A DNA stretch of 32,987 bases from a virus: positions 1-32,987 of the IMG/VR virus record IMGVR_UViG_3300036985_004988; one strand, given 5' to 3'. Each line of letters opens with the position of its first letter. Position 1 is the stretch's first letter. Below the pieces are notes generated by a model. The model made no database searches and was not told where the DNA came from. It worked only from the letters and a program-made list of their open reading frames with translations. Shown one piece after another: positions 1,698-16,887 of the stretch. The translations under genes and the position numbers were made by a program.

Positions 1698-2059
1698 GAT
1701 GGATCTATAGCCTCTAGATACGGAACTCGTTTTCCTATGCTGGACAATATTCCTGTAGTGTCCAGCAACTTCACTTGCTGACCATAGGACGAGAAATCCA
1801 AACCCATAGCGGTCTGTCCTTCGTAGCTGACAGATGCACCACCTACACTTTTACTCGATGCACGTTTCTCTCGTATACAGACAAAGTGGGCAGTAAGCCA
1901 TTTCTCTATCTCTTTCAAAGTAGCATCGTCCAGAGTAGAACTACCCAACTTGTTAGTAACAAGAAGATTTGCTGGAGTGATAAATACTGTCACTTCATCA
2001 GCAGCCAGTGTAGTCTTTATGATCTGCTTAACTTCCACTCCTGTAACTCTGTTAGCCAT
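1694..2059 (-). CDS. Head-tail adaptor (connector) protein
   Basis: A 121-residue frame, ATG at 2059, with AGGAGAG upstream. It reads as the connector family: 'GVEVKQIIKTTLAADEVTVFITPANLLVTNKLG' (helical bundle), 'LDDATLKEIEKWLTAHFVCIREKR', and the C-terminal signature 'S-V-S-Y-E-G-Q-T-A-M-G-L-D-F-S-S-Y-G-Q-Q' followed by 'KLLDTTGILSSIGK'. Such proteins form a ring under the portal and bridge to the stopper. The start lies 8 bases inside the end of the upstream sulfotransferase-like gene, so the genes are coupled. Confidence 0.8.
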   Translation of the reverse strand: MANRVTGVEVKQIIKTTLAADEVTVFITPANLLVTNKLGSSTLDDATLKEIEKWLTAHFVCIREKRASSKSVGGASVSYEGQTAMGLDFSSYGQQVKLLDTTGILSSIGKRVPYLEAIDPS

Positions 2060-2726
2060 GGGAATCTCTCCTGTTCTGACTCCATAAAGCTGGTTCTACA
2101 AACGGAAGCACTTCTTTTTCATTCCAAGACAACCCTGCCCACTCAACTGCTTCCTTTATCTCACTGAAGTCTCCAGCAACATACTTACTTGGCCAAACTT
2201 CTTTGATAAGAAGACCAGCTTTTTTCATTTCCTCAAATCGTTGTTTGTGAACATCAATCCACTTCTGCCAACCAGGAGCATCACTGAACGCACGCATGAA
2301 CGTTGTCTTTAGGCAGGAGTTTATAATGTCCTCATCAGTCCTTCTAACAATGATCCACTTTGCATTTGGAAATGCCCAGATAATCGCAGTCCATATCAAA
2401 CAGAACTTCGCTTGCTTGACATACCAAGCACCAGAGGAATACCCTTCACTAATCATCAAGGACTCTACTTGCTCCTTAAGATTATCGATAGAGACCAAGT
2501 TGTCTATATCAGGCAGAGGCCACTGACCAAGAGCATCCATACCAATAGATCGCAAGTATGGCTTTACGATACCCTCTCTAACCTGAACATTTTCAAACAT
2601 CCCTCTTTTATTGTGTCTGTTAGGTCCAGACACTTCTCCACCAAAAGCACCGCATAGCTGAAAGATCCCAGCCGTCATGGATGTCCCTGAACGTGCACAT
2701 CCAGTAATAAGAATAGGAGGGATCAT
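2052..2726 (-). CDS. Sulfotransferase-like P-loop protein
   Basis: A 224-residue frame with ATG at 2726 overlapping the previous stop by ATGA. The N-terminus 'ILITGCARSGTSMTAGIFQLCGA' is the 5'-phosphosulfate-binding loop of sulfotransferase-family proteins (G-x-x-R-S-G-T-S), and 'NAKWIIVRRTDEDIINSCLKTTF' resembles the 3'-phosphate-binding segment (IVRRp.d...S). PAPS-dependent sulfotransferases move a sulfate to sugars, proteins or lipids. In this phage the substrate is unknown; the gene sits in the head-tail connector cassette and is coupled to an MptE-like gene upstream. The catalytic base cannot be assigned by eye. Confidence 0.7.
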   Translation of the reverse strand: MIPPILITGCARSGTSMTAGIFQLCGAFGGEVSGPNRHNKRGMFENVQVREGIVKPYLRSIGMDALGQWPLPDIDNLVSIDNLKEQVESLMISEGYSSGAWYVKQAKFCLIWTAIIWAFPNAKWIIVRRTDEDIINSCLKTTFMRAFSDAPGWQKWIDVHKQRFEEMKKAGLLIKEVWPSKYVAGDFSEIKEAVEWAGLSWNEKEVLPFVEPALWSQNRRDSHG

Positions 2727-3343
2727 ATTGGCTTCTCCAGAATGGTCTCTAAGCGAACCTTACGAAACAGGTTCAGAGCTGAATCCATATTTGCGTTGAT
2801 GACTTCTACTTCCGGATAATCTCTCCAGAGGCTATCAGCTAGGTTAGCTATGTTTTCCATAAATACCTGGTAACGCATAGCTTTAGGACGATCCTTCTCA
2901 TTGATATGCCAGTTAGATTGACCACTGTTACCTAACTTCATATCAAATCCCAAGAGAACAATCTTCTTAGCTCCGAGATTAACTGCTAGATTAATGGCTG
3001 AAGCACCAGTGTTACAGAACCAACCTACCTTCGGAAACTTTTCCAAAGTCTTACCATTGACTCTCTCTAGCATGTGCACGGAGGGATCCTCAATGTACTT
3101 CAATGAACAAGACACGAGGATCCCTTCGTACAGTTTCAATCTCTCACGATGTATCATCCACCATGCATAATCGCCAAAGTAACATATTGGAACCAACTTC
3201 TCTCCCAATACGTAGGCATCATTACAGCCTATAACACACTTCCCTTTTAATGGTGTAAGATTTACACCACATAAACTGGGACCACCCCCAACTATGTAGA
3301 CAGTTTTACCTTTCCACCAATTGGGAGGGTTCCACCAGTTCAT
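2723..3343 (-). CDS. MptE-like / DUF115-type phage protein
   Basis: A 206-residue frame starting at ATG 3343, with GGAG about 10 bases upstream. It opens 'WWKGKTVYIVGGGPSLCGVNLTPLKGKCVIGCNDAYVLG', the nucleotide-binding 'GGGPSL' motif and following 'cNdA' of the MptE-like family, a Rossmann-type fold related to glycosyltransferases and pterin pyrophosphokinases. 'GWFCNTGASAINLAVNLGAKKIVLLGFDM' is the second typical block. Such genes are often found among phage head genes, sometimes annotated 'norphogenetic protein'; their role is not settled. It is coupled by ATGA to the sulfotransferase-like gene, suggesting the two act on one modification. Confidence 0.7.
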   Translation of the reverse strand: MNWWNPPNWWKGKTVYIVGGGPSLCGVNLTPLKGKCVIGCNDAYVLGEKLVPICYFGDYAWWMIHRERLKLYEGILVSCSLKYIEDPSVHMLERVNGKTLEKFPKVGWFCNTGASAINLAVNLGAKKIVLLGFDMKLGNSGQSNWHINEKDRPKAMRYQVFMENIANLADSLWRDYPEVEVINANMDSALNLFRKVRLETILEKPI

Positions 3344-5451: not shown

Positions 5452-8400
5452 TTACTTCTTGCTGAAGTCCATTACTGGCATTGCGTCTGCAACATTGTCG
5501 TCTGCATTCGCGTGCATACCAGTACCCTCACCGGAAGCCCGACCAACCATTGACTCGTCGACTTCCACTTCGGCCAATGCCGCAAGACCTTCAAGTTCAC
5601 CAACGGACTTCGCATTGAGCATCTCGTCCGAGAACTTGTTGCGCTTGCATGCCTTCAGACCCGCGATCAACGCTACCTTACGATCACGGTGCATCTTCAG
5701 ACCAGTACCCAAGATGTCCCTCATTTCACCAGGTGCACTGGCGATGAAGTCTTCGGCGGTCTTCGGTGCTGGCGGATTCTTCAAAGCAGCAAGCTGCTTC
5801 ATGTCTTCCGCTCTTGCCTGAGTCATCTGTTCAACCCGATCAAAGATCGAGTCTTCCATTACCTCAAGCTCCTCGCGATCTGACTCCACTACACCAGCAC
5901 TAAGCCCGATGAGTGAATCGATCCTCTGCTGTCTCTTCATACCTCTCCCTTTCTTTGTTTGTGACTTACCAAAGAACTTTTCCTTGGCAGGACCACTATC
6001 TTCCTCTTCCTCTTCCTCATCCTCGTCTATTTCCTCTTCCACCACATCTTCGTCGTCCATGTCCTCTTCGTCCATGTCCTCTTCGTCCATGGGCATCTTT
6101 TTCTTGTTCACCACTATTTCCACTTCCTCTTCGTCATCAGCAAGGGAAACAGTCTTGGAACCATCCTCCTCCTCATTTACAGTGTAAGACCTACGGAATG
6201 TTCCGTCAGGACTCTTATACACAAAGAATCCCTCCTCAGAGTTAATATGGAGAACTTCTTCCTCATCACCCATTATGGAAATGAGTGCATCACGTTCTTC
6301 CGTATTGATAGAGAGGTAATTGGTTACTGCCATTACTTCTTCCTCATCTCCATCAAGAGTAACATCGTCGTCCTTATCAATGGTGTATCCCTGCTGATAA
6401 GTTTTTCCATTGAGAGAGTAAACGAAAGTTTCGTCGTCGTTAATATCAACGACATGTCCGTATGGGACACTTACTCCAGCAGCTTCCTGGGTAGCAGTCC
6501 TCTTCGGAGAGATAAGATCCTGCAACCTTCTCCGCAACGTCTCAAACGAAAGGTTCACACTGAGACCCATCTTCTGCGCATTAAATACCTTCACTTCTGA
6601 CGCTCCTTCCTCTTCATGATGTTCCTCTGTATTATTCTTTACTCTTGATTGCAGTTTCTTAACTGTATTCTCAATCTTCCTTAAGCGAGTCTCTGCACGA
6701 GATGAACGTCCAAAGTCCCGAAGAAGTTCTTTCTGTGAACCAGTGGTATTCTTAGCTTGCCTCAAAGCACTTCTCTGCATCTTAGGAAGTGCTTGCCTGA
6801 ACATAGATGCCTTTGCTCCCGTATCAGAAATGAGTCTAGCTTCTGACGAAGTAAGAATAGTCTTGGTAGTATATGTTCCACGACCAAAAGAAGACGTAAC
6901 TTTATTCAAGTTACTTTCCATACGTTCGATATGGGAATCTACCCCATAGACAGCACGTTCTGCAGCAGCTGGTCCCGACTTGAATCTAGAATGCAATGCA
7001 TCTATCTTACGGTTCACATCTGCAGTATGTTGTGTTTTATGCACGTAGTCCAAAGAACCAGGAGTAAATAACTTACCACTACCCTTTCCCTTTTCATGAG
7101 GATTACCACTCCCTGGTCGCTTTGATCCTTCACTCTTTCCATCCCCATACTTCATCCGTTTTTCACCCTTAGCCATAGCACGATCATACTTCTTGTCGAA
7201 TGCTCTGTCCTTCTTACTCCTACTACCACCACCACTTGAACCACCACCAATCTGACCAGGACGACCAACATGACCAAAGGCACCGGAACCAGGACCACCG
7301 TGAGTTTTCAACATATCATCCAATCCAGCACGTTCCCATATTATATCTGCCTTACGAGCTAATTGCTCAGCCTTTCTAGCAGAAGGAGACATCTTTTCTG
7401 CTTTTCTACGAAGACGTTCCACTTCGCCACCCATCTTTTCAAACTTAGCCCACTCACTTTTACTCAACTTACCTTTCTTCCACAACTTATCATCCAATTT
7501 GAACTTCTCCTTTGCCAAAGCAGTTGCCTGATCTTTCAGCTCCTGAGCAGCTTCAGGGATACCTTCCTTATCAAGTTCTTTTACCTGATCATACAATGCG
7601 TTAGCTTCTGCCATAGCCTTTTTCTGTTTAGGAGTATAAATCCTCGAACTAGAAGATCTACCACCACCACTACTTGACCCACCTTGGTGACCTGGTATTC
7701 CTTCATGCCCAAAGTTGCCAGATCCACTTCCCCCAGCATCGTGCATCTGTTGGCTGTTCAACCTTGGCATTCCTGCCCCATCACTCCAACTACAGGCACC
7801 CTTCTGCTTAGGTAGCACTGCAAGATGGTCTGGACGGAAGTTGTGTGCAACAGCATTGTACTTTTCTTTCTGCCAGTTGCCAACGAGGAGATCGTCCTCA
7901 GTAAACACTCCAATGGAAACTTCCAGATGCTTACCAGCATTCAATGCAAGCATTACGTCCTTGTCTACTTCGTCTGCCTTGACAGGATCTATCCAGACTT
8001 CTCCCTTGAGCTTGCCACTGTCGAAGTTGCAGTTGAACGTTTTGCCTATTGTCTGTTTCTCCTGTAAGTGTGGCTGACTGGCAGTTACGGGAGCTCCGTC
8101 CTCAGTAGGATGATAAACAACTACCGGACGACCATTCCACGATTCAGGGAACTTACCCAGTTCTTCTGAGGAGTAGTACACATTGTTATGTACTCCTTCT
8201 GTCATGAAAATCGCAGGAGCTACAATATACTTCGTGCCTTCAAGCACTTCCCACCGGATCATGTCGCTCATGAGTGCGCGGAAGGAGCGAATAGCTGGCT
8301 GATCATCGTTCTTCTTCACTTTAGATTCAAGAGTCTTTGCAAATCTCTCCAAACTATCAGCCTTCTCTCTCATAACTTTGGCACTGGCCTTAATGAATCT

Positions 8401-9291
8401 GGGAACTGTTGATTTCCCGGTCTTTCCATACTGATCATAAGCATCTGCTGCTGCTCGATAGGCATCTGCTGCTGCTTGTGCTGCAAAAGGAGTCTTCTCT
8501 TTATACGCTCGTGCAGAAAGTTCAGCCGAAAGTCTTTCCGTAGAATGAGCTCTCTGTATAGAACCAATAGATCCTGTTACTTCTGGAATGTCTTCCCCTT
8601 CCTCAGGATTCTTATGGGAACCACGTTGAGGACCAAACTCTTGGACGTCGTCTCCCCCACGACCATGTTCATCTCCTTCCCCACCACCAATAAACTCGGA
8701 CCTACCACTATCATCATTACCACCACCACTGCCACCCACTTGTCCTTCCCTACCTTTGTGTCCGAAGTTGCCACTACCTGCTCCACCATGGGTAGATATA
8801 GAAGAATTATGCTTCTTACCCTTTCCACCAGTCTCCATCCAGTCTATTCGTTCCTTCAATCCCTTTTCTTTCTCTGGAGTCCAATTACTCACTGATTTGG
8901 GCTTTCCAGCAGCTTTTCTTGCCTTAGTAATCAATTTATCCAAAAGTTGGCCAGCCTTTCCTTCTGTCATATTAGGATTAGCTTTTCTAATCTTACCTAA
9001 AGCTCTCATCCAAGGAGCTATACTTTCATAAGGACCATCAACTTCCAAATCTGCATAGTTGATATTGGTTGGAATTGCAAGTTCTCCACCACCAGACTTT
9101 CCACCACCAGGACCACTACCACCAACATGTCCTGGGATCCCACTGTGTCCACGATTACCTGATCCCGGACCACCATTGTTCTTCAGATCTTCTTCTTCCG
9201 CGATGTGAAAACCAGGAGTCCGATCCTTCTTGGAAATGTCTTCCTTACTCATCACGTGAACGTTCATCTTCTTTTTCCCATGAATGCCCAT
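5452..9291 (-). CDS. Prohead protease (DUF2213-type) and scaffold in one multidomain protein
   Basis: 1279 residues; ATG at 9291 with AGGGAGACGGTC upstream. The recognisable protease core is about residues 345-511: 'YIVAPAIFMTEGVHN', 'SWNGRPVVVYHP', 'GKHLEVSIGVF', 'NFRPDHLAVLPKQKGACSWSDGAGM', as in DUF2213 prohead proteases. Two tandem copies of a small beta unit follow (near 'FVYSLNGKTYQQGYTI' and 'FFVYKSPDGTFRRSYTV'), then a very acidic stretch and a C-terminal scaffold-like part with 'RDRKVALIAGLKACKRNKFSDEML'. Unusually, the core is surrounded by extra segments bounded by four glycine-rich linkers (about residues 40-58, 169-188, 520-538, 665-683). Related proteases are usually several hundred residues shorter. 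The extra helical segments have no recognised function. Confidence 0.8.
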   Translation of the reverse strand: MGIHGKKKMNVHVMSKEDISKKDRTPGFHIAEEEDLKNNGGPGSGNRGHSGIPGHVGGSGPGGGKSGGGELAIPTNINYADLEVDGPYESIAPWMRALGKIRKANPNMTEGKAGQLLDKLITKARKAAGKPKSVSNWTPEKEKGLKERIDWMETGGKGKKHNSSISTHGGAGSGNFGHKGREGQVGGSGGGNDDSGRSEFIGGGEGDEHGRGGDDVQEFGPQRGSHKNPEEGEDIPEVTGSIGSIQRAHSTERLSAELSARAYKEKTPFAAQAAADAYRAAADAYDQYGKTGKSTVPRFIKASAKVMREKADSLERFAKTLESKVKKNDDQPAIRSFRALMSDMIRWEVLEGTKYIVAPAIFMTEGVHNNVYYSSEELGKFPESWNGRPVVVYHPTEDGAPVTASQPHLQEKQTIGKTFNCNFDSGKLKGEVWIDPVKADEVDKDVMLALNAGKHLEVSIGVFTEDDLLVGNWQKEKYNAVAHNFRPDHLAVLPKQKGACSWSDGAGMPRLNSQQMHDAGGSGSGNFGHEGIPGHQGGSSSGGGRSSSSRIYTPKQKKAMAEANALYDQVKELDKEGIPEAAQELKDQATALAKEKFKLDDKLWKKGKLSKSEWAKFEKMGGEVERLRRKAEKMSPSARKAEQLARKADIIWERAGLDDMLKTHGGPGSGAFGHVGRPGQIGGGSSGGGSRSKKDRAFDKKYDRAMAKGEKRMKYGDGKSEGSKRPGSGNPHEKGKGSGKLFTPGSLDYVHKTQHTADVNRKIDALHSRFKSGPAAAERAVYGVDSHIERMESNLNKVTSSFGRGTYTTKTILTSSEARLISDTGAKASMFRQALPKMQRSALRQAKNTTGSQKELLRDFGRSSRAETRLRKIENTVKKLQSRVKNNTEEHHEEEGASEVKVFNAQKMGLSVNLSFETLRRRLQDLISPKRTATQEAAGVSVPYGHVVDINDDETFVYSLNGKTYQQGYTIDKDDDVTLDGDEEEVMAVTNYLSINTEERDALISIMGDEEEVLHINSEEGFFVYKSPDGTFRRSYTVNEEEDGSKTVSLADDEEEVEIVVNKKKMPMDEEDMDEEDMDDEDVVEEEIDEDEEEEEEDSGPAKEKFFGKSQTKKGRGMKRQQRIDSLIGLSAGVVESDREELEVMEDSIFDRVEQMTQARAEDMKQLAALKNPPAPKTAEDFIASAPGEMRDILGTGLKMHRDRKVALIAGLKACKRNKFSDEMLNAKSVGELEGLAALAEVEVDESMVGRASGEGTGMHANADDNVADAMPVMDFSKK
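7243..7299 (-). repeat. Glycine-rich linker motif, protease copy 4
   Basis: Codes for GGPGSGAFGHVGRPGQIGG at residues 665-683 of the protease/scaffold protein. It ends a helical, Lys/Glu-rich segment and begins a Lys/Gly/Ser-rich stretch. Same motif as the other seven copies in this window. Confidence 0.9.
7678..7734 (-). repeat. Glycine-rich linker motif, protease copy 3
   Basis: Codes for GGSGSGNFGHEGIPGHQGG at residues 520-538, directly after the end of the DUF2213 protease core. It is nearly identical in protein to the first copy in the portal gene, including the following SSSGGG tail. Confidence 0.9.
8728..8787 (-). repeat. Glycine-rich linker motif, protease copy 2
   Basis: Codes for GGAGSGNFGHKGREGQVGG at residues 169-187, followed by a Ser/Gly/Asp-rich spacer. 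It separates the first inserted segment from a helical region that leads to the protease core. Confidence 0.9.
9118..9174 (-). repeat. Glycine-rich linker motif, protease copy 1
   Basis: Codes for GGPGSGNRGHSGIPGHVGG at residues 40-58, after a 39-residue N-terminal leader and before a helical segment of roughly 100 residues (74-168). The NR in place of F at position 7-8 also occurs in the second portal copy. Confidence 0.9.
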
Positions 9292-9883: not shown

Positions 9884-12133
9884 TCACTTAAACAAATGCA
9901 AATCCTTATCTGGAACTGTGGTATAAGGACCTTCTTGCCATTCTTTCCAATTCAAACTGTTCTTCTCTGCTATCCTCTTCCATGCCTTATCGTTAGTAGA
10001 GAAATGAACAGCCATCTTACCAGAAAGATTAAGAGTCTTGTCCTTAACAATGGCAGACAATCCCGCAGAGAAGATACCCTTCCTCTGCATAGAACGTGGG
10101 ATGTCACTATCATTGATACGAATAACATTTCCATCCGCATTAGGATAGAGACTTATACTCAAGCCAAGACCAGGACCATCTACAGTCACATTGACTTTAG
10201 TAAGCTTCTCATTCTTAAGCTGAGGATGACCTTCCTTCAGGTATTTGCCAGTACTACGAACTTCAAGTTTTATCTTTGGGTCTACCTTGTGTATGGCCTT
10301 TACCCAAGCTTCTGCAACCTTATCTAACTTGGGAGCTATTCTTCGTGCTTCCTCATCCATCTTTTCAGGAGACATCTCAAAAGCACCTACAAGAATTGGT
10401 TTTCCATTGAACGTACCAACGAAACCATCCTTTGCATACTTACCACCAAAAGAAGAAGTCAGATCAACGGACTTCCCTCCAGTAGAACGTCCACCACCAA
10501 CCTGCCCAGGACGTCCTTTGTGACCAAAGGCACCAGATCCCTTACCACCAAAGACAGACAGACGACTGAACAGTTTCAGCTTACTTCTCTTCTCACCTAC
10601 ATTCGCAGGAATCGCTACGCACCTGCAATTTGGATGTAGTGGTATCCGTCCCTCTATGTCGTCAATGGAAAAGACCTTTCCCTCTAGTGCCTGACACTTA
10701 GTGCATACCTTGTCGTCCCCAGCAGTACTCCACTCAGCTTCTACTTCTACTCCCTCTATTTGGGCTGCTCGATACATCCCCATAGAAGCCATATGATGGG
10801 CTCGAATGATCTCCGTGCGTGCGATAGTGCGTGCGCGAGAGCGTCCTATGTCTGTGTCTTCACTGAGAGACCTTGCCATTTCCAAAGGACTAAGTCCCTT
10901 AGCCATTCCCTCTGCAAGAGTGTGGGCAATTCTGTTAGACAAGAACTGCGTAATTCCTTTCAAGTCGTCGTACGTGCGCATGTGCAGGAGAGCAACCCTG
11001 TCCACATGAAAAGGCATATTGAAAGCACTGTCGATGAAACGAGGAGCAAAGTCTGGCTTAGGAAACTTAATACCCTTCTTGTTGAGCTCTGTCTCCCCTC
11101 TCTGCATACCCTTCTTGTAGGCAGAGTCAATGTATACGTCTGTCCATCCAGTGGCAGTCCCTTGTAGTTGGGGACCTTTGACAATCTTCAGAACCTTGTC
11201 GTCTACTTCATCGTTTAGCCAGCGAATAAAGCGACGGATACCTGTTGCAGAGTTGTCGTAAGCAAACTCATACTTGTTCAGAGGAATGCTTGCGTGAACC
11301 TGAAGACCATCTTCTCTCCAAGGAATCTTTTCCACAGACCAACGAGGATCTTGCTCACTAACTTCAGTGAGCTTCTTCATCTTTACGCCTTGGGCAATTG
11401 CAAACTGCCTACTCTCTGCCTTGGACAACTGCACTCCGTAGTAAGCTTTGAACAGTCCAGCACCCTGACCTTCAAGAATCTTCCCATCCTTAACTGCCCA
11501 ACTATGCTGTCCCCAAAATGGAGACTGAGAAGTACTAAGAGCATACCCAGTAACTATAGCGTCTGCCTTGCCAGATCTAAACTGCAGAGAAGCATTGGTA
11601 TGACATTCATTAGGTATACCCTTGTAGTTAACAATACCTTTCGTGCTAAACTTCTGTCCTCTCTTAGCTATCAAGTCCAGATCACTGTCACTGTCCAGTC
11701 TTTGGTCAATATAAGCAGGACGAATACTTCTCATTGCCTTCTTAACAGACTTACGATCTTCACGACTGGGCTTGGGACCCTCTCCTGTAAAACGTTCCTC
11801 AAGAGGGATACCCTTCTCACTTCCTTCTACACTTGATCCTCCTCCTACCTGTCCTGGCCTTCCCTTATGACCAAAGGCACCTGAACCAGGACCACCAAAT
11901 GTCTTCAACTCTTCTTTTCCAAGACCCATCACATCCAGATCTACAATCGCATGTCGTATCGCTGCCTTAACTAGAGCAAAGCGTCTGTCCAGATCTCTGG
12001 TGAATCCTGTACGTATCGCTCCCGTGCGGGAGGGATCGTAGCGCAAGACTCTCTTAGCAAGAAGATGCAGATGGGAACCATTTCCACAACTACACTCGTG
12101 CTGTTCTAGCAGTGCTGGAGAGGCGTAAGACAT
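9884..12133 (-). CDS. MuF-type head morphogenesis protein with extra domains
   Basis: 749 residues; ATG at 12133 touches the stop of the previous gene (TAAATG). The head part is split: residues 30-75 ('YDPSRTGAIRTGFTRDLDRRFALVK') are the MuF/SPP1 gp7 N-terminus, and about 290-510 hold the core, including 'ARTIARTEIIRAHHMASMGMYR', CxxC at 477/480 and HPNCRC at 500-505. Between them, after a glycine-rich linker (80-99), lies an inserted domain with Cys177 ('NECHTNASL') and His210 ('GQHSWAVKDG'), resembling Cys/His hydrolase folds. After a second linker (529-548) comes a C-terminal domain of about 200 residues of unknown function. MuF proteins ride in the capsid near the portal, and MuF fusions can carry effectors. 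Confidence 0.82.
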   Translation of the reverse strand: MSYASPALLEQHECSCGNGSHLHLLAKRVLRYDPSRTGAIRTGFTRDLDRRFALVKAAIRHAIVDLDVMGLGKEELKTFGGPGSGAFGHKGRPGQVGGGSSVEGSEKGIPLEERFTGEGPKPSREDRKSVKKAMRSIRPAYIDQRLDSDSDLDLIAKRGQKFSTKGIVNYKGIPNECHTNASLQFRSGKADAIVTGYALSTSQSPFWGQHSWAVKDGKILEGQGAGLFKAYYGVQLSKAESRQFAIAQGVKMKKLTEVSEQDPRWSVEKIPWREDGLQVHASIPLNKYEFAYDNSATGIRRFIRWLNDEVDDKVLKIVKGPQLQGTATGWTDVYIDSAYKKGMQRGETELNKKGIKFPKPDFAPRFIDSAFNMPFHVDRVALLHMRTYDDLKGITQFLSNRIAHTLAEGMAKGLSPLEMARSLSEDTDIGRSRARTIARTEIIRAHHMASMGMYRAAQIEGVEVEAEWSTAGDDKVCTKCQALEGKVFSIDDIEGRIPLHPNCRCVAIPANVGEKRSKLKLFSRLSVFGGKGSGAFGHKGRPGQVGGGRSTGGKSVDLTSSFGGKYAKDGFVGTFNGKPILVGAFEMSPEKMDEEARRIAPKLDKVAEAWVKAIHKVDPKIKLEVRSTGKYLKEGHPQLKNEKLTKVNVTVDGPGLGLSISLYPNADGNVIRINDSDIPRSMQRKGIFSAGLSAIVKDKTLNLSGKMAVHFSTNDKAWKRIAEKNSLNWKEWQEGPYTTVPDKDLHLFK
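10490..10549 (-). repeat. Glycine-rich linker motif, MuF copy 2
   Basis: Codes for GGKGSGAFGHKGRPGQVGGG at residues 529-548, at the exact boundary between the MuF core and the unknown C-terminal domain. It differs at only one residue from MuF copy 1. Confidence 0.92.
11837..11896 (-). repeat. Glycine-rich linker motif, MuF copy 1
   Basis: Codes for GGPGSGAFGHKGRPGQVGGG at residues 80-99, between the MuF N-terminal helices and the inserted Cys/His domain. Confidence 0.92.
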
Positions 12134-12355
12134 TTATACCTGCAACTTATGGGCAGCTTCTACTTCATTGCTCGATGCAAAATCCAATGGGTCAAAGCCA
12201 AGAATAGCAATGACATCAGGAGGAGTAACAGGGAGCAAAGCATCTTCTGTGTCCTCTTCGTTGAGCAGTGCTTGGTCTTGTCTCCAGTCTGGCCAAGACT
12301 GATTGTCCGGACCAAAGTGAACATCTACTGGTAGTCCTGTAATTGCTTTGATCAT
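12134..12355 (-). CDS. Small acidic protein between portal and MuF genes
   Basis: A 73-residue frame. The start is ATG at 12355 (MIKAITGLPVDVHFG), which overlaps the portal stop (ATGA) and has GGAGGAAGG upstream; the five extra residues of the longer frame are not needed. The protein is acidic, with 'SWPDWRQDQALLNEEDTEDALLPVTPPDVIAILGFDPLDFA' and no membrane segment. It ends exactly at the MuF start. A small gene in this position is common in head operons but I do not recognise the family. Confidence 0.75.
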   Translation of the reverse strand: MIKAITGLPVDVHFGPDNQSWPDWRQDQALLNEEDTEDALLPVTPPDVIAILGFDPLDFASSNEVEAAHKLQV

Positions 12356-15324
12356 TTTACCTTCCTCCAAGCCAAGAACACATGTGGATCAATGTAGCTC
12401 TGTAAAGCGACAGTCGGTGTATTTCCAAGGTGTTGGCTTACGACGGTCGCAACTGCCTTCACAGACTTCTTATAGGACGCTCTGTTCTTAGGAGGATCCA
12501 TACGGTTTATTGTATCTACGGCCAAAGATGTTCCTCTGGCAGTGCGCATGTCCTTTGGCTTAAAGCCACCACCATCCAGTCCTCTCGTGTATACACGCAA
12601 GGTCTTCTCTGTAACAGTTGGGAAGAGGAGTCCTTTCGGACCTGCTGCCTTGGCTCTTGCCAGAACATCTTTACCTACTGCTTTGTCTGTTATTGAAAAA
12701 GTCTTGATCTCTCCATGAGACTTCCCAGGAACGAAACGTAGAGCGACTGCACCAGGACGACCTATCACATGACGTCCTTGCAAAGTAGTAGCACCAAACG
12801 ATTCGTGTTCAGCCTTCATGTCTCTCTGGTTACCAGGACGAATAGCTGTCTCACTGATTAACCGAAGGCAAGAAGCGTTCTCTCTCTTGGTCTTGTCACC
12901 ACTCTTTATGTCTTTGGAAATCTCTGCCGTAACAGCATCTAGCTTTGTTCGGAGCTCTTCTGTTCTGCCGAACTTAGTAGCAGAATTCTTTGTTCGTGCA
13001 TTGATACTCAGTATTGGCTGACGACGACCTTTCTCATCTCTTCCAGTAACCATCAAGTCTGCCTTAGGATCCGTAGATACTTCCACGTCTGTCCACGCAG
13101 GAGGAATAGGTCTTCCTGTTGCCTTCATCACATACTTGGGTATTGGCCTTCCATTAGCCATAACCAACTCAGTGATTTCTTTCCCGTCCTTGTCCTTCTT
13201 GCCTGTAGGGACTCTCTTGGTTGCTCCCATAGGTGCCGAACCACCAACTTCTCCCTGACGTCCTGCGTGATCTCTGTTACCTGATCCAGCACCACCATTA
13301 ATATGCAATGCATTTACCAGGAGAACTTCGGAAGTAAGATCTCTAACACGTTTCGCTCCCTTAATCATGCGAAGCTGATCCTTGGGAACAATATGCTTCT
13401 TTCCTGTCCTGTCCGTCATCTCCCACGAAGTGCTGTTCTCATGTCCTCCAGTAAGGATACCACCAATCACTGTCTTGCCACTAATGGTAATTACAGCATC
13501 ACCAAAAGAGATCTTCTTACTCAATGGCAGAGAACCCTTCTCGAACGTCTTACGCAGATGGGAAGCAATAGGCTCTACCTTATCTCCCTTAAGAGGCATT
13601 CCCTCTGGCTTAATTTCCATTCCACTACCACCACCACTGCTTGATCCACCTTGGTGACCTGGGATACCTTCATGACCAAAGTTACCTGATCCCTCTCCTC
13701 CGGCTATCTTAAATGCTCTCTTAGGAGGATTAGTGGATGGAGAAGACCCTCTGGTCGGAGGAGTAGGTGGTCTACCCTTTCCACCACCAGTTGGCGTTGT
13801 GTCAGGCTGTCCCTGCCCAGAAGCATCTTCCCCATCCTGATCGTCTGCCTGTTGGGCAGCAGCAACTTGAGCATCTTCTTCTATCTGGGCTTGCTCTTCT
13901 TCCATCTTCTTCATTGCTTCGTCAATGATCTCTTGCGCTTCTTCCTCATCCATATCAAGGAAGCGAGTAAGGAAGAACATCGGAGGTATCAGGGCATCCA
14001 GACCACCACTGATATATGCAGCAATCATGTCAACCTTGGACTTCTTAATGTCCTGCTGTTCCTTCTCCGTAAGCATCTGAGCATCAGGCCAATCCACCAT
14101 GAACTTATTGTTCTTGGGTGTGGGTAGAATTCCAAGATCAATCAGTCTCTGGACAAAGGGACGAAGAATGATTGGTTCTGCAAAGTCTGTTCGCCGTTCT
14201 GCTACTCGATTGTTCCAGTTCTCCTGATCTGTAGTAGAAGCAAGTTCTCCTCTCTCTGAACCAGTAAGTATTCTCTGGGGAATGCCAGTAGCAGCACTGA
14301 TCATCTGAATCTGGACAGTCACGTTTGGTGTAGGATCTGCAACAGGAGAAGAAAGGTTTCTTGCCGTAACTCCCTGCAAGCGCATATAACGGTTGATACC
14401 ATGGATGTACTTCTTTATCTCAGTATCCATGGCAGTCTTACCAGCAGCATCTAGCTCCTGGGAGTCTGCATCCATTTCAAAGGAAAAGCCAGGATAGCCT
14501 CCTCTCCAGAACATCTCCGCACTACCAGCTATCAGCTTCTCCAGATCGTCCAAACGATTGTATACAGCTTCCAAACGAGGAATACCGTAGACGTCACTAA
14601 TAAGACAATCTTCCGCAACATGGATTACTCGGGAGTGGTGAACTACGTATGTCTGTGAGGGAGCAACTCCTACTGAAGTCCGAGCCTCTCCTATTGAAGA
14701 CTGCCCCATGTCGTAAGTTATCTGGTAAGTAAGAGGAAGTCCATATCGGGGAGACTTAACGTTCTGATCCCAAGTGAGTATTACTGCATGGTCTTCTGGG
14801 TATGGTTGCGAGAACAGCAATTTGCTGGCCTTGGTAGCTGGAATCTCCAGTTTAGATACTTGGGAGGACGAACCTGAACTTTTCTTGTTAGGAGCGTCAT
14901 CAACGCCAAGCAATAGTATCGAGTACCGTCCAAGGCCAGCAAGCTTGTCAGCACGATTAAGGTAAGAGAAGACGCGAACCTTTTCCAAGAGAGCCTTCCA
15001 TGCCTTCTCGAAAACAGATTCCTTTGCTTCCTCTGTGTCGTATACCTCTGGCTCCATTCGCCACGTGGCATCAGGATAAGCATTAACTATTCGCTTGGCA
15101 ATGTCTTGCCGTTGATACTTAGCCTCAAAGTGTTCGTATTGAAGAGTCTTCTGATATCCTACTACTTCGTAGATATCCCTATCCCCACCAAAAGTCTGTC
15201 CTAGGAAAGATCCCAACTTGGATCTGGACAGCAACTCGTTGGACATAGTAGACAATTTCTGGTTAGCTGCCCGCAAGGACATCAATGCTCCAGCGTTAGT
15301 TTCAGGAAATCTTGTGCGTCTCAC
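12352..15324 (-). CDS. Portal protein fused to a type IB topoisomerase domain
   Basis: 990 residues with a GTG start at 15324 and TAGGAG 7 bases upstream, over the terL stop. Residues about 45-470 are a DUF1073-type portal ('YQRQDIAKRIVNAYPDATWR', 'GLGRYSILLLGVDD', 'VVHHSRVIHV', 'ATGIPQRILTGSERGELAST'). After a Gln/Asp/Pro linker comes glycine-rich motif 1 (542-561), a domain of about 110 residues, motif 2 (677-696), and then about 290 residues matching type IB topoisomerases: 'SETAIRPGNQ' (Arg829), 'FVPGKSHGE' (Lys868), 'KDMRTARGTSLA' (Arg927), 'LGNTPTVALQSYIDP' (Asn967, Tyr977). The Asn in place of the classic His is normal in bacterial enzymes. The portal makes the DNA channel; the topoisomerase part could relax or nick packaged or incoming DNA. 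Confidence 0.85.
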   Translation of the reverse strand: MRRTRFPETNAGALMSLRAANQKLSTMSNELLSRSKLGSFLGQTFGGDRDIYEVVGYQKTLQYEHFEAKYQRQDIAKRIVNAYPDATWRMEPEVYDTEEAKESVFEKAWKALLEKVRVFSYLNRADKLAGLGRYSILLLGVDDAPNKKSSGSSSQVSKLEIPATKASKLLFSQPYPEDHAVILTWDQNVKSPRYGLPLTYQITYDMGQSSIGEARTSVGVAPSQTYVVHHSRVIHVAEDCLISDVYGIPRLEAVYNRLDDLEKLIAGSAEMFWRGGYPGFSFEMDADSQELDAAGKTAMDTEIKKYIHGINRYMRLQGVTARNLSSPVADPTPNVTVQIQMISAATGIPQRILTGSERGELASTTDQENWNNRVAERRTDFAEPIILRPFVQRLIDLGILPTPKNNKFMVDWPDAQMLTEKEQQDIKKSKVDMIAAYISGGLDALIPPMFFLTRFLDMDEEEAQEIIDEAMKKMEEEQAQIEEDAQVAAAQQADDQDGEDASGQGQPDTTPTGGGKGRPPTPPTRGSSPSTNPPKRAFKIAGGEGSGNFGHEGIPGHQGGSSSGGGSGMEIKPEGMPLKGDKVEPIASHLRKTFEKGSLPLSKKISFGDAVITISGKTVIGGILTGGHENSTSWEMTDRTGKKHIVPKDQLRMIKGAKRVRDLTSEVLLVNALHINGGAGSGNRDHAGRQGEVGGSAPMGATKRVPTGKKDKDGKEITELVMANGRPIPKYVMKATGRPIPPAWTDVEVSTDPKADLMVTGRDEKGRRQPILSINARTKNSATKFGRTEELRTKLDAVTAEISKDIKSGDKTKRENASCLRLISETAIRPGNQRDMKAEHESFGATTLQGRHVIGRPGAVALRFVPGKSHGEIKTFSITDKAVGKDVLARAKAAGPKGLLFPTVTEKTLRVYTRGLDGGGFKPKDMRTARGTSLAVDTINRMDPPKNRASYKKSVKAVATVVSQHLGNTPTVALQSYIDPHVFLAWRKVK
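13237..13296 (-). repeat. Glycine-rich linker motif, portal copy 2
   Basis: Codes for GGAGSGNRDHAGRQGEVGGS at residues 677-696, directly before the topoisomerase IB domain. It is the most divergent of the eight copies, with D for G before the His. Confidence 0.88.
13642..13701 (-). repeat. Glycine-rich linker motif, portal copy 1
   Basis: Codes for GGEGSGNFGHEGIPGHQGGS at residues 542-561, after the portal core and its Pro/Thr linker. A SSGGGSG tail follows, as in protease copy 3. Confidence 0.92.
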
Positions 15325-15333
15325 GGTATACTC

Positions 15334-16887
15334 CTAGTCTGAACCCCAGACTCCTACCTTCTTCTTGTCGCTCTTCACTGCCAACTTGTTATAGGCACCA
15401 CTGGTTCCATCAACCTTATCCTTAAACTTACCTCTTGGAAAGTAACGCATCTCGTCTACGTAAGCTTTCGTCCATGGGCGAATGAGAACAGCAACGTTGC
15501 CTATGTATACTTGTGCAGAAAATGGTTCTGCTCGCTTTTCTTTACTGCCCTGACCACTCACACCATCCATGAATGCAGAGTACCCATCCAAGTTTTCAAC
15601 AGTACGCTCTGCGGATTCCTTACCACCACTGCCTGGTTCCTTCTCTGTCCAGACCGTAACTGCTTTTCCATCCATTTCTGCAGTGTCCTTAATGGTCTGT
15701 TCTCGCTGACCATGAGACCACTGCCCAGCAATGACGTCTGCAACGATATACTTGAAAGGACCTTGCTTCAACTTGTGCATCAGCACACCAGCCGTGAAGC
15801 ACCCACCACCAGTTGTCCCTGCCTTGTCCCAGTAACGGACACTCTTCTCTATCCATCGTTCATTGAAAGAATGCACAAGCACAAGATTGTCAACAGGAAT
15901 CATTGCTCCTTCACGTGGAACAGGACGCTGCTGTAATTGACCAGCAGAAGCATACGGACCTAACTCACCCTCCAGAGCCTTTAGTTCTACTTCTCCATAA
16001 CGCTCTGGGCAAAGAGGCTCTCCTTCTACTGTACGAGGATCCTTGAACTTCAATGGAGAGAGTGTTCTGTGATCGTTCCTTTCATACCTAGCAGGTAGAC
16101 AAAGAATATTCCATCCAGAATCCTTAGACAACACATGTCCTGCCAGATCCTCCTCATGCGAGCGTTGCATGATAATAAGGTAACGTCCCGTCTTGGGATT
16201 GTTCAGTCGTGTAGACATGACTTCATCCCACCAGAACAAAGTAGACTTCCTGTAGTTGTCGCTCTCTACCTCTCTTACGTTGTGGGCATCGTCTACAACA
16301 ATGATGTCACCACCTTCCCCAGTATTAGCACCGTTGACTGAAGTAGCAAGACGCACGCCTCCACGATTGTTAGCATACTTTACTTTGGTGTTCTCGTCAC
16401 CCAGGATTTCCATCCCTGGTTGGTAACGATTAACCAATCCCTGATATCGTTGTGACTGCAGAACACGACGACACTTAACGCTATCTCTTATGGAGAGAGT
16501 AGCTGCATAAGAAGAGAATAGCCAACGCAAACTAGGATATCTCAACCATCCATAAGATGGCAACATAACAGAAGAAAGCAAAGACTTAGTATGCCTAGGA
16601 GGCAGGTTGATAACCAACTTGCGAATCTGTCCTTCCAGTAATGCCTGTAAATGATCACAGACAGCATCCACGTGCCAACCACCAATATATGGGTCAGACT
16701 CTACAGTAGACCACATATAAGGTACATAATCACGCATGCTGCGGAAGGAGAGCTCTTGGTCTATTGTTTCCGCCGGAGGTAAGTTCTCCAGTAACGTCAA
16801 TAGCTCCCTGTCCGATTGCTGCTTCTCGTAATCCCTTTCTAATAATATCGCGGAGGGTGACAAGTTCGGTTCTCCCCAGTTTTCCAA
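15334..16887 (-). CDS. terL: Terminase large subunit
   Basis: 517 residues. ATPase part: Walker A-like 'PPRHTKSLLSS' (about 96-106, Lys101), 'WLFSSYAATLSI', Walker B 'DIIVVDDAHN' (194-203) and coupling 'YLIIMQRSHEEDLAG'. The nuclease part starts at 'RYWDKAGTTGGG' (Asp354). It cuts concatemeric DNA and drives it into the head through the portal. The start is uncertain: the longest frame begins with TTG at 16887 and overlaps terS by 158 bases; the first ATG, at 16737 (residue 51), overlaps by 8. The family's usual N-terminus extends above that ATG ('TIDQELSFRSMRDYV'), so an upstream start, such as the TTG at 16797 behind AGGGAG, is likely. The gene ends where the portal ribosome binding site begins. 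Confidence 0.9.
   Translation of the reverse strand: MENWGEPNLSPSAILLERDYEKQQSDRELLTLLENLPPAETIDQELSFRSMRDYVPYMWSTVESDPYIGGWHVDAVCDHLQALLEGQIRKLVINLPPRHTKSLLSSVMLPSYGWLRYPSLRWLFSSYAATLSIRDSVKCRRVLQSQRYQGLVNRYQPGMEILGDENTKVKYANNRGGVRLATSVNGANTGEGGDIIVVDDAHNVREVESDNYRKSTLFWWDEVMSTRLNNPKTGRYLIIMQRSHEEDLAGHVLSKDSGWNILCLPARYERNDHRTLSPLKFKDPRTVEGEPLCPERYGEVELKALEGELGPYASAGQLQQRPVPREGAMIPVDNLVLVHSFNERWIEKSVRYWDKAGTTGGGCFTAGVLMHKLKQGPFKYIVADVIAGQWSHGQREQTIKDTAEMDGKAVTVWTEKEPGSGGKESAERTVENLDGYSAFMDGVSGQGSKEKRAEPFSAQVYIGNVAVLIRPWTKAYVDEMRYFPRGKFKDKVDGTSGAYNKLAVKSDKKKVGVWGSD

Follow-up and report, generated by a model that had tools for sequence, protein, structure and literature searches.

The window analysed here is the entire IMG/VR virus record IMGVR_UViG_3300036985_004988, 32,987 bases in length. 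On its minus strand, the genes for the terminase small subunit, the terminase large subunit (TerL), a protein of 990 amino acids, a MuF protein, a DUF2213 protein of 1279 amino acids, a decoration protein, and the major capsid protein follow one another. With Pfam and PHROG annotation, the order TerL, portal, MuF, protease, and capsid is present, which is the usual order of such head genes, and a matching order is seen in the haloarchaeal relatives Hardycor1 and Humcor1. The 1279-aa DUF2213 protein is a putative protease, judged from the gene order of these relatives; in Humcor1, a prohead protease is annotated at the corresponding place. The 990-aa protein joins a portal to a type IB topoisomerase (TopIB). 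Its parts and its neighbors are as follows.

12352..15324, minus strand: portal-TopIB fusion gene, 990 aa, GTG start, single open frame with no internal stop (Pfam Phage_portal_3 and Topoisom_I)
13834..15324, minus strand: portal domain, residues 1-497, folded at about 50-495 (Pfam, PHROG, Sf11 portal match, AlphaFold2 model)
13552..13833, minus strand: disordered tether, residues 498-591, 94 residues (pLDDT below 50 throughout)
13639..13701, minus strand: header motif 1, residues 542-562, GGEGSGNFGHEGIPGHQGGSS (motif search)
13369..13527, minus strand: small middle domain, about residues 600-652 (weakly predicted beta strands in the full-length model)
13234..13296, minus strand: header motif 2, residues 677-697, GGAGSGNRDHAGRQGEVGGSA, more degenerate, directly before TopIB (motif search)
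12355..13230, minus strand: TopIB domain, residues 699-990 (Pfam, PDB sequence comparison, AlphaFold2, Foldseek)
12838..12840, minus strand: catalytic Arg829, kept in 90 of 90 aligned sequences from the matches listed
12721..12723, minus strand: catalytic Lys868, 86 of 90 as aligned, from the matches listed
12544..12546, minus strand: catalytic Arg927, 90 of 90 aligned, from the matches listed
12421..12423, minus strand: catalytic Asn968, 89 of 90 aligned, from the matches listed; His in one cellular-type copy
12394..12396, minus strand: nucleophile Tyr977, 90 of 90 aligned, from the matches listed
15334..16887, minus strand: TerL, upstream neighbor of the fusion gene (PHROG 38, E 8.9e-66)
9884..12133, minus strand: MuF head-morphogenesis protein; contains two header motifs plus two additional domains (Pfam Phage_Mu_F, E 1.5e-19)
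5452..9291, minus strand: 1279-aa DUF2213 protein with four header motifs (Pfam, PHROG, motif positions)

The sequence-only reading had recognized one frame of 990 codons at these coordinates and interpreted it as a DUF1073-type portal fused to a TopIB, with two copies of a glycine-rich motif at the join. The coordinates, the frame, and both motif copies are correct, and Pfam, PDB sequence comparison, AlphaFold2, and Foldseek are concordant on a DUF1073 portal followed in frame by a C-terminal TopIB. The portal half matches Phage_portal_3 (DUF1073) at residues 67-434 (E 2.5e-32), PHROG 146 (E 7.5e-68), and, in PDB sequence comparison, the Sf11 portal (E 4e-24). In the full-length AlphaFold2 model, the middle domain (about residues 604-648) is weak, residues 653-695 are disordered, and TopIB is confident from about residue 699, in good agreement with the boundary at 697 proposed earlier. 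TopIB thus starts immediately after header motif 2, with beta strands from residue 699 on the N-terminal side of its core. The sole Pfam match of the middle domain has an E-value of 0.25, and no relatives of it were found in Pfam or among the 80 nearest portal relatives of the window.

The TopIB assignment is based on profile, sequence, and structure. Topoisom_I (PF01028) is matched at residues 776-973 with the E-value 1.2e-18, and residues 740-763 match part of Top1B_N_bact, the N-terminal domain that completes the clamp of these enzymes, over profile positions 26-49 of 49 with 26.4 bits, slightly below the cut-off of 27. PDB sequence comparison indicated the Deinococcus TopIB (E 5e-15). Residues 738-990 were modelled by AlphaFold2 from 34 sequences, that is, the window and 33 viral relatives, with pLDDT 90.9 and pTM 0.84, and the model has the TopIB fold. 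Its Foldseek matches to TopIBs range from E 1e-4 to 8e-13, with TM 0.80 to 3igc, and the best match by E-value is a poxvirus TopIB. Because the catalytic core is common to TopIBs and tyrosine recombinases, and recombinases do appear lower in the Foldseek list, the domain might be a misread integrase. The fold search rejects this identity and leaves it a negligible probability: no PDB match other than TopIBs reaches about E 1e-4, and recombinases come at 5e-3 or worse. In addition, the Pfam matches are to Topoisom_I and the TopIB N-terminal domain, the alignment with the Deinococcus radiodurans TopIB is near full length, and no integrase profile was matched by the fusion protein in Pfam. The D. 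radiodurans enzyme (2f4q, 3m4a) shares the fold, the catalytic Arg-Lys-Arg-Asn-Tyr, and about 31% identity over 252 residues with the window TopIB. It differs in that the window TopIB lies on a virion protein and falls in a separate phage group on the tree, and its match to the N-terminal-domain profile covers just the last part of that profile.

Four of the five catalytic residues named in the sequence-only reading (Arg829, Lys868, Arg927, and Tyr977) are as it gave them, while its Asn967 is displaced by one position: residue 967 is Gly, and the Asn is residue 968. The four exceptions at Lys868 are alignment shifts and not losses of the lysine, since GK(N/S/H)KG(K/R) places it one alignment step off; the lysine is in effect present in 90 of 90. 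The C-terminal domain appears to be a complete type IB topoisomerase and has all five catalytic residues. The dN/dS of TopIB is 0.05-0.31 in the measurable pairs, indicating purifying selection, and the catalytic pentad is intact in practically every copy; by these sequence comparisons, the domain looks like an active enzyme maintained by selection. The same conservation and dN/dS speak against a non-catalytic plug or anchor that keeps the DNA end near the portal. Such a role would fit the fusion to a portal and the general ability of TopIBs to clamp duplex DNA, but it is considered highly unlikely.

The occurrence of this TopIB in other phages was analyzed in IMG/VR. A profile scan revealed 247 contigs with a relative of the window TopIB, of which the best 80 were examined together with a further 15 TopIB contigs from an earlier alignment-based scan. 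Alignment-based scans succeeded where single-sequence scans with TopIB or portal had not; the latter gave no confirmed relatives in IMG/VR, the peptide patterns being too strict. Genome contigs, scanned with one narrow pattern, yielded five loci. The 94 TopIB frames examined include a few bacterial-genome loci and a few near-duplicates, and the loci are biased towards TopIBs resembling that of the window.

A portal lies upstream in the same chain in at least 31 of these 94 frames (from the best 80 of 247 contigs, the 15 additional contigs, and the bacterial loci). The portals are of the DUF1073 (23), lambda (3), HK97 (3, one of them weak), and Mu (2) types; these counts are approximate, as Pfam confirms 12 and the rest were assigned by profiles built from few sequences. 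TopIB is the last domain in all 31 listed fusions, with no more than 10 residues after it, and the frames are 757-1304 aa in length except for L136, which is ended by the contig edge. One of the fusions, L181, is found in an Elusimicrobia MAG. Such recurrence bears on whether the fusion frame could have arisen by chimeric assembly or by accidental read-through from one gene into the next, a suspicion raised by the absence of TopIB from all 80 of the nearest portal relatives of the window (0/80). The sequence-only reading had named two possible objections, the lack of a TopIB fold and reads showing a stop or frameshift between the two parts, and neither applies. At least 31 other contigs, including L181, carry portal-TopIB frames that agree in domain order and linker grammar, and the portal and TopIB parts are alike in G+C, with no sign in this make-up of a recent transfer of the TopIB part. 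Intact fusions on independent contigs exclude an assembly join as a general explanation, and a chimera is considered extremely improbable. Given the absence from the 80 nearest portal relatives, the TopIB function is dispensable for the portal lineage of the window.

TopIB is also found on partners other than portals. It is fused to MuF in L103, L112, L131, and L147, to an ADP-ribosyltransferase (ART) in L107, and to a Nudix domain in L174. L095 encodes a polyvalent-type chain of ART (ART-PolyVal), a 2H-type domain, and TopIB; L098 has portal, InPase, and TopIB in one chain, and L149 has portal-InPase followed by a separate TopIB gene. Like polyvalent proteins, L095 and L098 combine several disparate enzymatic domains, whereas the window chain has only the middle domain besides portal and TopIB. 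In many of the remaining loci, a short TopIB gene adjoins portal, MuF, or terminase. The emphasis placed earlier on twelve copies at the DNA channel therefore holds in part: the portal fusion recurs, but the same TopIB clade also occurs on MuF, on polyvalent-type proteins, or as a short gene of the head cluster, so that the shared factor looks like location inside the head and not attachment to the portal ring.

In a tree of 110 sequences, the 89 phage-type TopIBs form one group with a long stem (SH-aLRT 98), apart from cellular TopIBs. This is a quick tree with many weak inner branches, on which the fused forms show at least 10 partner changes. Among the rows closest by path to the window TopIB are copies linked to MuF, to a lambda portal, and to an HK97 portal, rather than DUF1073-linked ones. 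Pairs of loci show the same discordance. TopIB is 96% identical between L168 and L178 against 69% for the portal, and between L106 and L118, too, the similarity of TopIB far exceeds that of the portal; in L130 and L136, portal and linker are identical while TopIB has diverged. By these comparisons of sequence, the TopIB module is swapped independently of the portal, and its repeated fusion with four unrelated portal types suggests that phages pack TopIB on purpose. A search of 50,697 phage records revealed no cultured phage with this family; the only matches there are distant TopIBs of the solo type. In a class-wide search of 369 genomes, phage-type TopIB was found nowhere beyond the seed genome, whose sole copy scores 352 bits against 187 bits or less for cellular TopIBs.

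The glycine-rich motif in the window occurs in eight copies: two in the portal-TopIB protein, two in the MuF protein, and four in the 1279-aa DUF2213 protein. All eight differ at synonymous sites, and they mostly precede apparent separate domains. A header of this kind stands directly before TopIB in 63 of 91 frames among the matches listed, where shuffling gives an expectation of 0.65; none of 17 cellular TopIBs has one. These counts were made with regular expressions partly written after viewing the same sequences. The commonest header before TopIB in other loci, ES.HPR...G.F..GGG, belongs stylistically to the same set as the window motif. In the GSGNFGH form, at least 29 of 126 frames among the matches listed bear portal, MuF, DUF2213, or TopIB domains. 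On this pattern of occurrence, the window motif is best described as a member of a wider group of linker headers that precede TopIB and other head-linked domains. That the headers are cleavage sites or cargo tags is a guess. The set of motifs brought to light here might be a general cargo signal; no paper on the motif GSGNFGH was found among open-licence papers.

Fusion of enzymes to portal or MuF proteins is itself a published class, and the enzymes are predicted to be packaged and injected (PMC5512222, PMC9503650). The available text of these two papers (Iyer et al. 2017 and 2022) names ART, PBECR, 2H, Nudix, InPase, and RelA/SpoT as partners and names no topoisomerase; the word appears once in that of 2017, in the reference list, and is absent from that of 2022. 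As in their set, so far as that text describes it, the enzyme domain in the window is C-terminal to the portal and lies in the packaging gene block, and TopIB shares chains or neighboring genes with InPase (L098, L149) and with ART-PolyVal and a 2H-type domain (L095). No portal-topoisomerase fusion was found in open-licence papers, in agreement with the earlier statement that no well-studied example was known. The best reading of the sequence data is that the fusion class is known and TopIB, as its enzyme, would be a newly recognized cargo.

It is probable, though by no means assured, that TopIB is a capsid-held cargo of this class and acts on the phage DNA while it is being ejected or soon afterwards. 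In P22 and SPP1, the C-terminal end of the portal points into the capsid, and P22 ejection proteins gather at that end (PMC4992974, PMC9701221), so a C-terminal cargo is expected inside the head beside the DNA. In the proposed mechanism, this end of the portal would bear TopIB on a disordered, header-motif tether of about 200 residues, and every virion would contain TopIB, in as many as about 12 copies, where the portal opens into the head. TopIB would then probably be freed by cleavage of the linker and, ahead of all phage gene expression, would relax the phage DNA and perhaps also host DNA close to where the genome enters. TopIBs relax supercoils of both signs and require neither ATP nor metal, so the enzyme could be active within the head or as soon as it has entered the cell. 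TopIB would be one of the interchangeable enzyme cargos attached to portal or MuF in tailed phages. Virion packaging, enzymatic activity, stage of action, cleavage, and delivery are what we infer in this mechanism. Portals normally remain in the emptied head, and delivery of TopIB thus needs the putative cleavage. Three points count against the mechanism: linear DNA with a free end can shed torsion unaided; to our knowledge, most phages eject their DNA without any topoisomerase; and the portal lineage of the window can do without TopIB.

The sequence-only reading had proposed relief of supercoils in packaging or ejection, or nicking and resealing of DNA in the new host, as putative roles. A role in packaging and a role in ejection are inseparable from sequence. 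TopIB may stay tethered at the inner portal mouth and relieve twist during packaging or exit, never being delivered. This role would suit an enzyme that needs no cofactors and is covalently joined, through a tether flexible in the full-length model, to the only head protein through which DNA has to pass; the orientation of the portal C-terminus would suit it as well. However, the ring attachment is not essential, as the same clade occurs on MuF or polyvalent-type proteins or in separate genes near the portal, and InPase, ART, and 2H, which take the same slot (PMC5512222, PMC9503650), have no obvious job in the capsid. Action confined to the virion is therefore regarded as unlikely, although it deserves some weight. 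Delivery or action at ejection is favored over a packaging role, since packaging and injection have been proposed for the enzymes that take this slot in other phages, and TopIB occurs in one chain with such enzymes.

A delivered TopIB could alternatively be directed mainly against the host or its defenses, by collapsing host supercoiling or by altering the topology of incoming DNA to escape recognition or cutting. The effector-type cargos ART, InPase, and 2H stand alongside TopIB in L095, L098, and L149, and its patchy spread and rapid module exchange resemble those of accessory or conflict genes. On the other hand, a dozen copies may not suffice to alter the host chromosome, and we know of no defense target for a delivered TopIB; this role is accordingly rated as quite improbable. 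As for why the portal has repeatedly come to bear TopIB, the reason might be twist control at the channel mouth, or header-cut release with the genome in a poxvirus-like manner, the headers being a general cargo mark or release signal. This broader proposal is possible and, on balance, doubtful.

Few genetic handles exist on whether phages need to control DNA twist in packaging, ejection, and first host contact. A portal-built TopIB that has changed its fusion partner at least 10 times, among MuF and four portal families, suggests that in some phages twist control may be selected for, and it would offer a single-residue handle (Tyr to Phe). The fusion would also add an enzyme class, from a family missing in the phage records searched, to the known head-delivered cargo.

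A TopIB inside a virus particle is known from vaccinia, whose topoisomerase is a virion component (PMC6336343); in the window phage, such a location is predicted. The poxvirus TopIB differs in being a separate protein, co-packaged with the transcription apparatus and not carried on a portal, and poxviruses are eukaryotic viruses unrelated to the window phage. Solo TopIBs of phages are already known as well (PMC7824862). Those of jumbo and other phages (Motura, Lu11, PaBG, Rhizobium phages, BS162P1) are distant from the window TopIB, with about 25-34% identity. Where annotated, they are named topoisomerase with no portal fusion noted, and that of BS162P1 is a solo gene of 254 aa.

A header motif precedes most of the recognizable domains in a long protein from another viral locus (L095) carrying a type IB topoisomerase (TopIB) frame:

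L095, 1222-6750: polyvalent-type protein of 1843 aa with ADP-ribosyltransferase, 2H-type, NTase-like, and TopIB domains

At locus L253, two long uncharacterized frames of 1012 aa and 1595 aa contain five and three GSGNFGH header copies, respectively, and probably represent further head cargo.

In the window, four header motifs are found in the DUF2213 protein (5452-9291, minus strand), along with several regions without a recognized domain. Its length of 1279 aa is unusually large given its position in the capsid-assembly block.

The head-morphogenesis (MuF) protein (9884-12133, minus strand) has an additional region at residues ~100-290, N-terminal to the MuF domain, which showed no match to Pfam. 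The Cys...His pattern in this region (ECHTNA at 176-181 and GQHSWAVKDG at 208-217) recalls papain- or transglutaminase-like peptidases, and cleavage of the header linkers is a possible role for the region.

Two MuF-TopIB proteins show intein-splicing matches in Pfam, indicating possible inteins within a virion protein:

L104, 750-5744: MuF-TopIB protein with intein-splicing match
L112, 2586-5738: MuF-TopIB protein with intein-splicing match

An adjacent gene pair adjoins the capsid genes of the window:

2052-3343, minus strand: sialyltransferase-like and sulfotransferase-like genes

The sialyltransferase similarity is to PHROG 4603 (E-value 3e-31), and the sulfotransferase similarity of the neighboring gene is weak. 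From these similarities, glycan modification is a possible function of the pair.
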